Part shown: positions 14,475-21,298 of the stretch, piece after piece
How positions within the stretch are numbered: the first letter of the stretch is position 1
Layout: every line of letters starts with the position of its first letter
Origin: Oscillospiraceae bacterium
GTDB lineage: Bacteria; Bacillota; Clostridia; Oscillospirales; Acutalibacteraceae
NCBI GenBank assembly: GCA_015066215.1
Contig: SVOU01000004.1
Coordinates: forward strand, 1 to 34,652
Direction of reading: 5' to 3'
DNA length: 34,652 nt
The notes under the pieces: model-generated
What the model was told of the DNA's origin: nothing
The model's input: only the letters and a program-made list of their open reading frames with translations
The model's database searches: none
Position numbers and translations under genes: made by a program

Positions 14475-14510
14475 AAAAAGACCGCTTGCCCAATGCAAGC
14501 GGTCTTTTTT
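14475..14510. terminator. Bidirectional intrinsic terminator
   Basis: AAAAAGACCGCTTGC-ccaat-GCAAGCGGTCTTTTTT. Confidence 0.9.
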
Positions 14511-15223
14511 CAGTCGTCGATAGGTTTGCGGGGACGGTCACCCTGTTCATAGCGGCAGCGCAGTTTTGACAGCGCTTTGGTTTCGATGCGGGATACGTAA
14601 GAGCGCGAAATACCGTAAAGCTTTGCCACCTCGCGCTGGGTCATCCCCTCTCCCACCAAGCCGTAGCGGCGTTCCAATATTTCCCGCTCACGTGCGGTCA
14701 GGCACTCCTGCATATACCGTTTGAGCCGTGCCGCATTCCACTTGGTCGCGGTGTCCTCCTCCAGCGAGTCCTCCCCCACCAGCACGTCCAGCAGCGTTAA
14801 AGGATTTCCCTCCTTATCCACGTCAATAGGCTCGGACATCGACATCTCTTGCTGGGTGCGCTTGCTCGCCCGAAAATACATCAGGATCTCGTTTTCAATA
14901 CAACGGGCGGCGTAGGTCGCGAGCCGCGTACCTTTGGTATAGTCAAAGGTTGCCACCGCTTTCATCAGTCCTATGGTACCGATGGAAATAAGATCTTCCT
15001 GCTCTCGCGCCGTGCCGTAATATTTGCGCACTACGTGCGCCACCAGCCGCAAATTATGCTCCACCAGCCTGTCACGCGCTTTCAAATCGCCGCCCTCGCG
15101 GTACGCCACCCACGCCTCCATCTCTTGCTGTGCCGTCAGCGGTTTGGGGAATGCGCCCGTCTGCACCACGTGCAGTGCCATATACCATATTTGCGACAAG
15201 GCTTGCAGCCATTGTAATAACAA
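14510..15223 (-). CDS. sigK: RNA polymerase sporulation sigma factor SigK (with N-terminal pro-sequence)
   Basis: AFPKPL, ARDRLVEHNLRLVAHVVRKY, EDLISIGTIGLMKAV, YAARCIENEILMYFRA, YGISRSYVSRIETKAL; TTG start at 15223 seven nt after AAAGGAGG. Confidence 0.93.
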   Translation of the reverse strand: MLLQWLQALSQIWYMALHVVQTGAFPKPLTAQQEMEAWVAYREGGDLKARDRLVEHNLRLVAHVVRKYYGTAREQEDLISIGTIGLMKAVATFDYTKGTRLATYAARCIENEILMYFRASKRTQQEMSMSEPIDVDKEGNPLTLLDVLVGEDSLEEDTATKWNAARLKRYMQECLTAREREILERRYGLVGEGMTQREVAKLYGISRSYVSRIETKALSKLRCRYEQGDRPRKPIDD

Positions 15224-15315: not shown

Positions 15316-17076
15316 TTATCCTACAAAAGAATAGCTCGGCTCGGTGACGCCGGTTTCCGTATCCGTCGAGGTGGTGTTGTCGCCCGTGTCCGACGGATCG
15401 GTGGGGTCGGTGACAATCTGGGTGGTCGGCGGCGTGCTGATATACAGACGGATGACCGAGTTGCGTTTGACCTCGGCACCCACTTCCAGATCGGTCTTGT
15501 CAACGCGACCCGCTTCCTGCGTGGAAACGAGAAGCGGGATGCTTTCGCCAACCTTAAAGCCGCACTGTTCCAGGAACAACCGTGCATATTGTTCTTCCCA
15601 ACCGGTCATATCGGGGACGGTAATGGTCTCCTTGCCGGCACTGATGACAACGGTGATGGTCGTACCTTTGTCGGCACTGGCAGAGGGTGCGGGGTTTTGC
15701 TCCAAAATAGTGCCGGCGGGCTTGTCGCTGATCACCATTTTGTCAATTTTCAGCACCATATTACCGTTGAGCGTCTCGTGAATGAGCTCATAATAGTTTT
15801 TGTTCAGCACTTCGGGAACAACGTGCTGCGGGTTATAGTCGCCGTAGGTCGTAGAGGTGGTCGGCTGGGTCGACGAAGCGGTCGTAGAGGTGGTGGTCGT
15901 GGTACCCGTACTGTCGCCGCCGAACATTTCGGGGAACAGCATCTTTATGATACCAAATGCAAGCAGGAACAACACTAAGAACACGCACAACGCAATGACC
16001 GCGATCATTACACCGCGCTTGCTCTTTTTACCCTCGCGCGGCTCTTCGTCAAAATCGGGAATGACCACTGCGGCCGCGCCGTCGTCGTCATCCTCCACCA
16101 GCAGATCGTTCACGGCTGCCGAAGCGGTCAACGCTTCCTGCCACTGTTCCACCTTGCGCGGACGGCGATCAGCCACCACCTGCAAGCCGTTAAACAGGCT
16201 CACCGCCACCTGATCGGGCAATTCCTCTGCCACGGAAGCGGGTACGAAGAGATCGTTTCCGGCCGCAGCGCGGTTGCCGGCGTCGGGTGCGGGTGCGCCC
16301 GTCAGCACACGGAACAGGGTTGCGGTCAAGCCGTAGACGTCGGTGGATGTGGTGATCGGCGCGTCAAAATTATACTGTTCGGGCGCAGCGTAGCCTGCGG
16401 CAAGTGCGGGCTTGAGATCGCCGCTGACAGTCCGCGCTTCGGGAATCATAAAGCCGCGCAAACGCAGACGCCCCTCGTTATCCACCATCACGGTTTTGGT
16501 AGAGATACCCATATGCAGCACACCTGCGGCATGCAACGAGCGCACACCCACCAAAAGCGGTATCAGCAAGGGACGTACGTCGTCCCAGCGCATACGACCG
16601 CCCTTTGCAGACAGATACGCTTCCCACGTTTGTCCCTCTTCCACCTCGGTGATAACGTAGGCGGTGTTGTTGTCCTCGAAAATATCATAGGTGGGGTACA
16701 GGATCGCCACGTCACGCATACGCGCCAATGCACGGGCGTGGGACAAGAACTTCGTCTTGTAATCGGCGTAGGTATTCTCACAACCGCCGATGATGCGCAC
16801 GGTCATATCCGTGTCGCGCTCGCAAAGGGTGTAAGGGAAAAACTCGTGGATCTGGCAGGGGGATTTCGCCACCGTGTCCATACCGATATAGGTGATGCGG
16901 TCGCCGCCCTCGACGACGCCCACGCCCACCAGATACCGCTCAGACAGCATCGTGCCGACGGGCAGACAAAACGCGTCGTTTTGCGCATTGACGGAGTGCC
17001 CGCAGATCCCACAGGTATCGCGCCCTGCGGGCAACGGGTTCATACAGTTCATACAAAGCTCTTCCTTGTTCATCAT
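15316..17076 (-). CDS. Zinc-ribbon / kinase-like (probable pseudokinase) / TM / PASTA-repeat protein
   Basis: N-terminal CMNC...CGIC; kinase-like fold with IHEFFP, HMGISTKTVMV and LRLRGFM in place of VAIK, HRD and DFG; APEQ motif retained; TM segment VMIAVIALCVFLVLFLLAFGI; two PASTA-like repeats. Confidence 0.85.
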   Translation of the reverse strand: MMNKEELCMNCMNPLPAGRDTCGICGHSVNAQNDAFCLPVGTMLSERYLVGVGVVEGGDRITYIGMDTVAKSPCQIHEFFPYTLCERDTDMTVRIIGGCENTYADYKTKFLSHARALARMRDVAILYPTYDIFEDNNTAYVITEVEEGQTWEAYLSAKGGRMRWDDVRPLLIPLLVGVRSLHAAGVLHMGISTKTVMVDNEGRLRLRGFMIPEARTVSGDLKPALAAGYAAPEQYNFDAPITTSTDVYGLTATLFRVLTGAPAPDAGNRAAAGNDLFVPASVAEELPDQVAVSLFNGLQVVADRRPRKVEQWQEALTASAAVNDLLVEDDDDGAAAVVIPDFDEEPREGKKSKRGVMIAVIALCVFLVLFLLAFGIIKMLFPEMFGGDSTGTTTTTSTTASSTQPTTSTTYGDYNPQHVVPEVLNKNYYELIHETLNGNMVLKIDKMVISDKPAGTILEQNPAPSASADKGTTITVVISAGKETITVPDMTGWEEQYARLFLEQCGFKVGESIPLLVSTQEAGRVDKTDLEVGAEVKRNSVIRLYISTPPTTQIVTDPTDPSDTGDNTTSTDTETGVTEPSYSFVG

Positions 17077-17108
17077 CAACGACCTCCTGATCGTAAATAC
17101 ACTATATA

Positions 17109-18089
17109 TCAGCGCAGCAGCTGCTCGCGCTTGACCTGACGGATATCTCTGCCGACAAACACGATCGGCTGGAACGCCCCGATAACGCGGGACGCCACCG
17201 CTTCGCCGTAACGCTCCGCGATCTGCCCTAATGACAGATTGGTGCTGATGATCGTCGGCAGACCTGCCAGCTGGCGGGTGTTGAGCAGCTCGTACAGGCT
17301 GGCGGTGTAAAACGGGCCCGTAAACTCCGTGCCGAGATCGTCGATCACCAAGAGGTCACAGGCGGACAGCTTCTCCAGCGTATCGCCGTCGGCTCTGCCG
17401 AAATGCTCGCGTTCAAGCTGGTGGAACAGTCTGCCTGCGGGGCCGTAGACCACGCCGAAGCCTTTTTCTGCCGCCGTGCGGGCGATCGCCAGCGACACCT
17501 GCGTTTTGCCCGTACCCGTAGGGCCGCACAAGAGCAAGCTTTCGGACTCGTTGGAAAAGTCAGCCGCATAGTGACGGCAAAAATCCAGCACCCGCTCCAT
17601 TCGTACGCGGGGGGACATCCCGTTTTCAGCGGTATCGGGATAATAGGCGGTGGTCAGGCTGTCAAAGGTGGGAAGCTTGACCTGTGCGGAGCGTTCCAGA
17701 TGCTGTACCGCCAACTCTTTGAGCAGCGCATCCAGACAGGCGCACCGCTTTTGATCAACGTAGCCCGTGTCGCGGCACAGAGGACAGGCGTATTGCGGCT
17801 CGAAGTTCGTCACCGTTTCGCCCGCTTCCCGCAAGATGGTCGCCAGCTCCGTCTGCAACGCCAGATTTTCGTCGCGGATACGCGCCACGACCGCCGTCAC
17901 GTCCGCGCGGTCGAGCACCGCCCTGACCACCTGCGCGGAGCTCGCCGCCAGCGCGCGCTCCACCTGAGCCACGCGGGGGTTTTGTGCCCGCATACGGTCT
18001 TGCAGCTGCGCCGCCTGTTGGTTGGCACGGGTGCGGCGCTCGGTCAGAATATTGTGGGCTTCTTCATATATACTTTGCTCCAAAGGCAT
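17109..18089 (-). CDS. DnaI/DnaC-like AAA+ helicase loader
   Basis: Walker A CGPTGTGKTQVSLAIA, Walker B LLVIDDLGTEF, IISTNLSLGQIAERYGEAVASR; N-terminal CPLC...CAC cysteine cluster. Confidence 0.9.
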   Translation of the reverse strand: MPLEQSIYEEAHNILTERRTRANQQAAQLQDRMRAQNPRVAQVERALAASSAQVVRAVLDRADVTAVVARIRDENLALQTELATILREAGETVTNFEPQYACPLCRDTGYVDQKRCACLDALLKELAVQHLERSAQVKLPTFDSLTTAYYPDTAENGMSPRVRMERVLDFCRHYAADFSNESESLLLCGPTGTGKTQVSLAIARTAAEKGFGVVYGPAGRLFHQLEREHFGRADGDTLEKLSACDLLVIDDLGTEFTGPFYTASLYELLNTRQLAGLPTIISTNLSLGQIAERYGEAVASRVIGAFQPIVFVGRDIRQVKREQLLR

Positions 18090-18094
18090 AGCAT

Positions 18095-19096
18095 TTACCC
18101 TTCTTTCTTTTGCGGATAGGTCGGCACGTAGTCGCTCAACAGGGCGTCATAGCCCGCCGTGTCCAGCGACCCGCCCGCAGGCTTGGTCGGCTGCTTTTTC
18201 TCGGGTTGCAGCTGGGCGACGGCGGTGATGCCGTCCTCGTGCCACGCGCCGAGGATCTGGTCCATATATTTGACCTGAAACTTACCCGTTTTGTTAAGCG
18301 TGCGGACATAGGCTTCCTTGATAAGCTCGTCGGCGAGCTGCCACTCGTTAAACCAACGGTCGGCGGCTTGCTTTTGCGCCGACGAGGGGCGGGCAACGGC
18401 AAGATCGAGCAACACTTCCAGCCGCTCAAAGGCTTTGCGCAGGCGTTCCAGCCCGCACAAGTATTCTTCTGCCGCCGTGACGGTGGTAATATCGCGGTCC
18501 ACCCAATCGAGTGCCATTTTTTCAATATAGCGCATATTGTTGTGGCTGTGCGCTACCGCCCACGTGACCGCCATCGTGATCACCTCGGACGGCATACCGC
18601 AGGTGTCGAATAAGTAAAGCAGCGTTTCGCTGTCGCCGCCCGACAGGGGTTTGCCGAGGCGCATAGACACGGTTTCCAAGAGATCGGCAAACTCCTTGCA
18701 AGTTTGCTGGCGTCGCGTTACCTCGAACAGTTGCGGCTTGACTGCCGCGGGGCGCGCTTTGGCAACAGGGGCAAACTCCGTGGCTGTTGCGGGCACTTCC
18801 TCTGCTGCAGGCGCGGGGGCTGGCTTATTTTCCGCAGGCATTGCCGCGAGGGCGGCGCTGTCCGCCCCAGTCAGCACGCCTGCCGCCATCCAAAACTCCA
18901 ACGCGTCGACACATTCCGTCCGATCACATTTGAGCGCGGCCGCGCAGGCGTTTTCGTCAAAGGGGGCGCCGTGGCGGGCAAACCACAAAAGCACCTTGAG
19001 CGGCAAAGCGCCCGCCGTCGGCAAGCAGCCGTCTGCCACCGCTTTCGGCACCAGCATCATATCGGTCAAGTCCATACTGCTCCACCGCACATCCAT
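18095..19096 (-). CDS. DnaD domain protein
   Basis: LSGGDSETLLYLFDTCGMPSEVITMAVTWAVAHSHNNMRYIEKMALDW; immediately upstream of the DnaI-like ORF. Confidence 0.86.
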   Translation of the reverse strand: MDVRWSSMDLTDMMLVPKAVADGCLPTAGALPLKVLLWFARHGAPFDENACAAALKCDRTECVDALEFWMAAGVLTGADSAALAAMPAENKPAPAPAAEEVPATATEFAPVAKARPAAVKPQLFEVTRRQQTCKEFADLLETVSMRLGKPLSGGDSETLLYLFDTCGMPSEVITMAVTWAVAHSHNNMRYIEKMALDWVDRDITTVTAAEEYLCGLERLRKAFERLEVLLDLAVARPSSAQKQAADRWFNEWQLADELIKEAYVRTLNKTGKFQVKYMDQILGAWHEDGITAVAQLQPEKKQPTKPAGGSLDTAGYDALLSDYVPTYPQKKEG

Positions 19097-19282: not shown

Positions 19283-20209
19283 ATGAAACGTCGTTTATGT
19301 GTACTCGCCGCCGTGGCGGCTATGTGTCTGTGCTTGTTGGTAGGCTGTTCTGCCGCGGGCGACAAGCTTTCGGACTCCCCCTCCAATATGGCACCGGACT
19401 ATTCCGCGGGCGACCGCGGCAACGAGATGTACGGTGACAAATATTACGGCTCCGACGTGGATATGGAAAACGGCAGCTCCGTGAGCGGCGGCCTGTCTGC
19501 CGACCTGACCGGATCTGCCGACGCCAACCGCAAAATTATTGAGCGCACCGAGATGTCGGTGCAGACCAAGACCTACGACGCGCTGATGAGCGCTTTGTCC
19601 GCGCGGCTCAAAACGGTGGGCGGATATGTCGAAAGTGCGCGGGAAAACGCGTCGGGACAGCGCTACGCTAACATCGTGGTGCGCGTGCCTGCAGACAAGA
19701 CCGCCGATTTTCAAGCGGCACTCACCGAAAACGGCACGGTGACCGACAGCTACACCACCACCGAGGACGTCACGCTCTCCTACGTGGATATCGAGAGCCG
19801 TATCGCCGCGCTCAAAGCGGAGCAGACCGCCCTGCTCGCTATGCTGGAAAAGGCGCAGGAGATCAAGGATCTTTTGGATATCCAAAGCCGCGTCACCGAG
19901 GTGACCGCCCAGCTGGAATCCTATCAGTCCCGCCTGCGCACCTACGATTCGCTGATCGCGTACAGCACCGTCACGCTCAACATCTATGAGGTCGAGCGGG
20001 TGCAGATCGTGGAGGAGCTGACCGTTTGGGAAGAGATCGGGCAAACGCTGTCCAACAACCTCGAGGATATCGGCGACGGCTTCGTCGGTTTCTTCGTGTG
20101 GTTTGTCGGCGCGCTTCCCTATCTGCTGCTTTTTGCTATCCCCGTTTGCGTGGTGTTGTTTATCATCATCAGACGCTGCCGCCGTCGCCGCAAGGCTGAC
20201 AAGGAATAA
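19283..20209 (+). CDS. DUF4349 domain lipoprotein
   Basis: Lipobox LLVGC; RKIIERTEMSVQTKTYDALMSAL...VRVPADKTADFQAAL...VDIESRIAALKAEQTALLAML; C-terminal TM. Confidence 0.9.
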   Translation: MKRRLCVLAAVAAMCLCLLVGCSAAGDKLSDSPSNMAPDYSAGDRGNEMYGDKYYGSDVDMENGSSVSGGLSADLTGSADANRKIIERTEMSVQTKTYDALMSALSARLKTVGGYVESARENASGQRYANIVVRVPADKTADFQAALTENGTVTDSYTTTEDVTLSYVDIESRIAALKAEQTALLAMLEKAQEIKDLLDIQSRVTEVTAQLESYQSRLRTYDSLIAYSTVTLNIYEVERVQIVEELTVWEEIGQTLSNNLEDIGDGFVGFFVWFVGALPYLLLFAIPVCVVLFIIIRRCRRRRKADKE

Positions 20210-20220
20210 AGGCATAGTTG

Positions 20221-20254
20221 CCCTCACCCCCACATAATTTTGTAGGGGTGAGGG
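20221..20254 (+). promoter_or_regulatory. Stable hairpin overlapping the SD region of the M23 gene (or a terminator)
   Basis: CCCTCACCCC (20221-20230) pairs perfectly with GGGGTGAGGG (20245-20254); ATG at 20258. Confidence 0.75.
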
Positions 20255-20257
20255 TTT

Positions 20258-21265
20258 ATGTTTTTGGTGTGGAGCAGACGGGCAAAACTGTGGTTTTGGG
20301 GCGTGGCGGCTTTGTGTCTCTTGTTGCCGCTGACAGCAGGACTGTTGGCGGGGCGCGGCGCGCCTACTGACGGCAAATATATCCGCTGGGTGGATTTTGA
20401 CGTGCCGTACGAGGCACTTGACTACGCGCTCAGCTTGGATATTCGCTCGCACACCGAGGAAGAAGTGCCGCTCTGCTGGGTGGATCTGCTCGCCTGCGTG
20501 GCCGCCCGCTACGGCGGCTTTCAAAACTATCAAAAAAGTCAACTGACCGCGGTCGCCGACCGTCTGCGAGGCGGCGAATCACTCGAAAGCATCACCGAAA
20601 AATTGACCGCCTTTTCCTATTACCGCGAAGCCTACGGCGCGGTACTGGATGGGCTGGTGGGGGTGTTTTGCGAGGAGCGTCCCTCCGAAAACGGCGAAAT
20701 GGCACAAGAGTGGGTCTACGGACTCAAAGCCTTTTCCCCCATCGCGCAGGGGTATTATTATAACGACTACGACGATTTCGGTGCGAGCCGCTCTTACGGC
20801 TATCGCCGTCGCCACCTCGGGCACGATCTGATGGGCAGCGTCGGCACCCCTGTTATTGCCGTCGAGAGCGGTGTGGTGGAGGCGGTCGGCTGGAACACCT
20901 ACGGCGGTTGGCGGGTCGGTATCCGCAGTCTTGACGGGCGGCGGTATTACTACTACGCCCACCTGCGCAAGGATCACCCCTACGCCGCCGACCTCGCGGT
21001 GGGGCAGCGCGTGACCGCGGGGGACGTGATCGGCTATATGGGACGTACGGGATACAGCACCACCGAAAACGTCAACAATATCGACACGACGCACTTGCAT
21101 TTTGGGTTGCAGCTGATTTTTGACGAGTCGCAAAAAGAAGGCAATAACGAGATCTGGGTGGACGTGTATGCGCTCACCCGCCTGCTCTATCGCCACCGCA
21201 GCGCGGTGGTGCGGGCGGAAAACGGCAAGGATTTCGTGCGCAAATTTGCTGTGCTTGAAAAATAA
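20258..21265 (+). CDS. M23 family peptidase (LytM domain), membrane anchored
   Basis: GHDLMGSVGTPVIAVESGVVEAV...YYYYAHL...GYMGRTG...THLHFGLQ; N-terminal TM segment. Confidence 0.92.
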   Translation: MFLVWSRRAKLWFWGVAALCLLLPLTAGLLAGRGAPTDGKYIRWVDFDVPYEALDYALSLDIRSHTEEEVPLCWVDLLACVAARYGGFQNYQKSQLTAVADRLRGGESLESITEKLTAFSYYREAYGAVLDGLVGVFCEERPSENGEMAQEWVYGLKAFSPIAQGYYYNDYDDFGASRSYGYRRRHLGHDLMGSVGTPVIAVESGVVEAVGWNTYGGWRVGIRSLDGRRYYYYAHLRKDHPYAADLAVGQRVTAGDVIGYMGRTGYSTTENVNNIDTTHLHFGLQLIFDESQKEGNNEIWVDVYALTRLLYRHRSAVVRAENGKDFVRKFAVLEK

Positions 21266-21266
21266 C

Positions 21267-21298
21267 AAAAAGGCGTCAGGAACACCTGACGCCTTTTT
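21267..21298. terminator. Bidirectional intrinsic terminator
   Basis: AAAAAGGCGTCAGG-aaca-CCTGACGCCTTTTT. Confidence 0.92.

Follow-up and report, generated by a model that had tools for sequence, protein, structure and literature searches.

Does a protein that looks like a PASTA kinase have to be a kinase? Pseudokinases of bacteria have been little studied, and the question is raised by one gene in a 34,652-nucleotide stretch of DNA (the window) from a draft genome of an Oscillospiraceae bacterium (contig SVOU01000004.1). The gene occupies 15316..17076 on the minus strand, from the ATG at 17076 to the stop at 15316, and encodes 586 amino acids. A ribosome-binding site, AGGAGG, can be read directly at 17083..17088 (minus strand). 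It sits 6 nt before the ATG, and therefore the gene coordinates of the first-pass annotation are right. The minus-strand frame as a whole (15316-17079) has 587 open codons. Residues are numbered here from TTG 17079, which makes the first Met residue 2.

The domain layout, all of it on the minus strand, is largely as the first-pass annotation had described it. The proposed N-terminal zinc ribbon (CxxC..CxxC, residues 9-26, 17002..17055) stands in that its four Cys are invariant in 80/80 aligned sequences, but the Pfam DZR match is weak (14.9 bits, under the cut-off). Next comes a kinase-fold domain (residues ~45-325, 16105..16947), recognized by Pfam Pkinase (44.5 bits against a cut-off of 31.7), AlphaFold2 and Foldseek. 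A single transmembrane helix spans residues 357-375 (15955..16011; hydropathy 3.32) and is also a helix in the structure model. It is followed by a Thr/Ser-rich extracellular linker (15835..15909), which has low confidence in the model. The rest of the ectodomain consists of the two PASTA domains already recognized in the annotation (62.9 bits in Pfam), located at 15640..15822 (PF03793, 31.5 bits) and 15433..15624 (PF03793, 39.9 bits).

What the kinase domain has lost was established by alignment with intact paralogues, which bears out the earlier motif readings. His78 (16846..16848, minus strand) replaces the ATP-binding beta-3 Lys, IKEYxP having become IHEFFP. The sequence HMGISTKT (residues 189-196, 16492..16515, minus strand) replaces the HRDxxxxN catalytic loop, with Thr196 at the position of the Asn, and GFM (residues 209-211, 16447..16455, minus strand) replaces DFG. 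There is also a loss that had gone unmentioned, in that the position of the alpha-C Glu has a different residue. Thus, the Lys, the HRD Asp and the DFG Asp are all missing, where the lack of any one of them is enough to define a pseudokinase at the level of sequence. Residues with a structural role are kept. The APEQY motif is present (residues 232-236, 16372..16386, minus strand; E234 and Q235 in 80/80 sequences, Y236 in 78/80), as are the HRD His, the APE Glu, the alpha-F Asp and the C-lobe Arg306, by position the subdomain XI Arg. The fold itself is predicted with confidence. An AlphaFold2 model based on 72 sequences has a mean pLDDT of 86, with ~87-98 by block in the kinase domain, the greater part of which is above 95. 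In Foldseek the best solved fold is PpkA (5hnv, E 2.6e-20), followed by the PASTA kinases of S. aureus and M. tuberculosis. PpkA is the top sequence match too (1.9e-18).

One explanation for these losses is trivial. The gene might be decaying, or be a sequence error in one MAG, and have no function. It does come from a single draft genome that is 81% complete. However, a search of 118 genomes (the window's own and its relatives) found an orthologue in ~64/71 other genomes of the same family, a count that includes contig-edge fragments, and absence from only seven. The frame is open in nearly all of these orthologues, and identical losses recur across the ~64 genomes and again at the 79 loci of a second set. 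At the catalytic Asp position, 63 orthologues have Gly (51), Ala (9) or Ser, Glu or Leu (one each), and none has Asp (the remaining row of the 64 has a gap in this column). The beta-3 Lys is present in three of the 63 and the DFG Asp in five. The second set is made up of those 79 loci, which come from the GTDB contig collection, and the window protein. It partly overlaps the first and has Gly in 65, Ala in 15 and Asp in 0/80. The DFG Asp position is mostly Gly or Asn, and no sequence among the 80 has the full triad of Lys, Asp and Asp. Conversely, fold residues, including the APE Glu, are almost invariant. PASTA domains are present in 25/25 orthologues scanned, and exactly one transmembrane helix is found in 61/63, the other two being contig-edge fragments. 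The dN/dS ratio (NG86) over the ribbon and pseudokinase part is well under 1, at 0.025-0.14 in 13 close pairs, with a fourteenth pair saturated. Conservation and dN/dS together rule out decay or assembly error for practical purposes, leaving it a vanishingly small chance. The designation "likely pseudokinase" is now strongly supported, the losses being common to an orthologous group under purifying selection. As judged from sequence, this is a non-catalytic protein under maintenance and not a decayed gene. The named hits belong to Oscillospiraceae-type Clostridia, known from MAGs and from isolates, among them Faecalispora (Clostridium) sporosphaeroides DSM 1294 and C. minihomine. A very fast-evolving orthologue on a long branch (L097:2998-4866, genome G003) has catalytic motifs that read IHEFFP, HAGIN and SAP.

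A conserved protein could still be an enzyme of an unorthodox kind. What if other residues stand in for Lys/Asp/Asp, as in WNK, SelO and SidJ? Part of the Gly-rich loop remains, a beta-3 Arg is common among the 80 aligned sequences, and a 2025 review argues that families with a beta-3 Arg may still bind ATP (PMC12599244). From these two features the pseudokinase domain may bind ATP. However, Gly or Ala occupies the catalytic Asp position in 80/80, the alpha-C Glu is missing, and Gly or Asn is usual where DFG would have its Asp. Moreover, neither a substitute active site nor an intact Lys/Asp/Asp elsewhere in the domain was seen in alignments of the orthologues. An active enzyme is therefore very improbable, and a non-catalytic function for the PASTA pseudokinase is, on its sequence, very probable.

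From what kind of kinase did the pseudokinase descend? The obvious candidate is PrkC/PknB, an ancestry implied in the first-pass annotation, by duplication of the canonical PASTA kinase. Like PrkC, PknB and Stk1, the window protein combines a cytosolic kinase fold, one transmembrane helix and extracellular PASTA domains, and it matches the NCBIfam PknB_PASTA_kin model (NF033483) with 123 bits. However, this is far under the curated 450-bit cut-off, and the best matching stretch, residues 344-561, is outside the kinase domain. The window protein also differs from these kinases in its missing catalytic residues and its N-terminal zinc ribbon. The kinase lineage is different too. In a tree for which the columns of the catalytic residues, the Gly loop, alpha-C and APE had been taken out, PrkC forms its own separate clade (100/100). 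The sampled pseudokinases, some of them from another family of the same order (f26), all fall into a single clade (98/99), which branches among catalytically intact zinc-ribbon IKEYxP kinases. Together with PpkA being the best match in both sequence and fold, the tree leads us to reject PrkC ancestry of the kinase domain, and a degenerate duplicate of PrkC is highly improbable. It is possible that PrkC donated the C-terminal half.

The zinc-ribbon IKEYxP Ser/Thr kinases of Clostridia, to which PpkA is the closest structure solved, have intact members across the class. They share with the pseudokinase the four-Cys CxxC..CxxC ribbon, a beta-3 motif of the form IxE(F/Y)xP and the GYAPxEQY segment. 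They differ in keeping the VAIK Lys, the alpha-C Glu, HRDISPDN and DFG, and most of those scanned have other C-terminal domains (Sel1, LRR, FHA, DUF5050). The HRD/DFG competence of this group is missing in the pseudokinases, which makes them a derived non-catalytic branch, and by this sequence evidence the PASTA pseudokinase arose once. The combination of zinc ribbon and PASTA also occurs outside the dead branch, one genome encoding intact zinc-ribbon kinases with PASTA. Elsewhere, two degenerate zinc-ribbon kinases lie outside the PASTA pseudokinase clade (L103:10282-12177, with HGNIRPEN, and L220, with IDEYLP and HGNICPDT), suggesting that catalysis has been lost repeatedly in the zinc-ribbon kinase group. 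Single Clostridia genomes can also contain clusters of mostly intact zinc-ribbon IKEYxP kinases (L099, L103, L096), whose C-terminal domains vary (PASTA, List_Bact repeats, Sel1, RDD-FHA, DUF285).

The 2025 review recognizes seven pseudokinase families, none of which is described with PASTA domains (PMC12599244). The DYD pseudokinases are likewise membrane-associated proteins of Firmicutes with a beta-3 Lys to Arg change and no alpha-C Glu (PMC12599244), but they carry a DYD motif plus HRD and/or DFG, whereas the orthologues here have GF(S/C) and H.G without the catalytic Asp. The ActPs3 family includes the MviN (MurJ) pseudokinase, also a membrane pseudokinase, with a place in the peptidoglycan pathway and a PASTA kinase above it. 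However, ActPs3 is actinobacterial, is fused to the MviN membrane protein and has an activation-loop deletion, with no PASTA or ribbon described. The orthologues have Clostridia hosts and retain the segment through GYAxxEQY. In the GLW family GLW takes the place of HRD, where the orthologues have H.G/A with the His kept in 80/80. ActPs1/2, CP1 and DLHK are set apart from the window protein by their descriptions, which do not include PASTA. Therefore, the PASTA pseudokinase matches no family of the review, DYD, ActPs3 and GLW having been tested and the others compared by description. It may overlap one of the 42 kinase families in the primary classification behind the review. A literature search for zinc-ribbon plus PASTA protein kinases in Ruminococcaceae gave no papers.

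The next issue is whether the pseudokinase coexists with a working PASTA kinase. Canonical PrkC is encoded in 68/71 genomes of the family, the three without it being 59-71% complete, and in 63/64 of the relatives that have the pseudokinase. Some genomes (G033, G041, G046, G056) keep PrkC but lack the pseudokinase. PrkC is near-universal in the order, and for this reason its co-occurrence is weak evidence of interaction. The first-pass annotation had suggested looking for a canonical PASTA kinase in the window's own genome. No second kinase match was found in this incomplete draft. However, it does contain a PASTA-type fragment that matches a relative's PrkC (55% over 42 residues) and stops at a contig edge beside rsgA. 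In 4/8 relatives' loci rsgA adjoins prkC, so the genome's own PrkC was probably cut by the assembly. Retention of the dead form across the family, beside an apparently working kinase, probably points to a sensor or scaffold without enzymatic activity, as opposed to a decayed gene.

What might such a protein do? The idea in the first-pass annotation of a non-catalytic envelope receptor or scaffold fits all of the observations. Our main reading, with a probability of roughly 0.6, is that it is a non-catalytic PASTA membrane receptor or scaffold, the most likely target of which is PrkC or its substrates. The probable ligands of the two extracellular PASTA domains would be lipid II or fragments of peptidoglycan, and the transmembrane helix would pass the ligand state to the inside, where the pseudokinase domain and zinc ribbon would serve as a protein-binding platform. 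The pseudokinase could then tune or localize PrkC-dependent envelope control through hetero-association, ligand competition or substrate scaffolding. Here we infer the absence of kinase activity, the ligand, the partner and the direction of the effect.

A role in modulating PrkC, taken by itself, is suggested by co-occurrence, the shared type of ectodomain and two precedents, and we advance it tentatively, at a little under an even chance. The first precedent is CD2148 of Clostridioides difficile, a degenerate kinase of the membrane, which modulates the phosphorylation of CwlA that depends on PrkC (PMC9674922). Its HRD Asp and Asn are replaced and it did not autophosphorylate in reported tests (PMC9674922). 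By its published description it is a similar case, in which PrkC is accompanied by another Hanks protein that is degenerate and anchored in the membrane, but it has no PASTA domains where the window protein has two (PMC9674922). The second is MviN of M. tuberculosis, which recruits FhaA after phosphorylation by PknB (PMC12599244). A conserved juxtamembrane PrkC phosphosite like that of MviN was considered and rejected. The most frequent candidate, a Thr at column 322, occurs in no more than 32/80 sequences, and the window protein has Ala there.

The partner could instead be something other than PrkC, with PASTA guiding a scaffold to a PBP, a hydrolase or the division machinery, much as EssB, a scaffolding pseudokinase without PASTA (PMC12599244), acts in type VII secretion. 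PASTA domains occur in PBPs too, including one (C36) of the window's own genome. In addition, the kinase domain does not derive from PrkC and no neighbourhood link to PrkC was found. However, no conserved partner gene was found either, and PrkC or PknB features in the closest functional precedents from the literature, so we regard this as rather doubtful. A more specific version of the PrkC-directed receptor is a lineage-wide decoy or co-receptor, in which a pseudokinase of non-PrkC lineage hetero-associates with PrkC at the membrane. This is an unlikely proposal, but if true it would make peptidoglycan signalling the work of a catalytic and a pseudo receptor pair, with a logic like that of HER3-HER2. 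More generally, a kinase-dead PASTA receptor is fixed in a family of gut and rumen Clostridia in the same genomes as the canonical PASTA kinase. The PASTA pseudokinase would thus be a natural, conserved separation of catalysis from cell-wall sensing, one that can be tested in cultivable species such as F. sporosphaeroides.

The genes around the pseudokinase gene were also compared. A DnaI/DnaC-like helicase loader (17109..18089) lies upstream on the same strand, 32 nt away, and the next gene upstream encodes a DnaB/DnaD-domain replication initiation protein (18095..19096, minus strand). These two genes are conserved together, and the dnaB-dnaI pair precedes the pseudokinase gene in the closest clade only. 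Among the orthologue loci contexts are many and no constant partner gene was found, so an inferred operon partner was dropped. A YebC-like gene is nearby in 8 loci. Further upstream in the window, between a DUF1540 gene and dnaB, are two ORFs of 415 and 229 aa (19295-21268, minus strand) with no Pfam or NCBIfam match. Directly downstream on the same strand (14510-15223) is an uninterrupted gene for the sporulation sigma factor SigK, not a conserved neighbour, which scores above the cut-off with NCBIfam PRK05803 (271 bits) and under it with TIGR02846.
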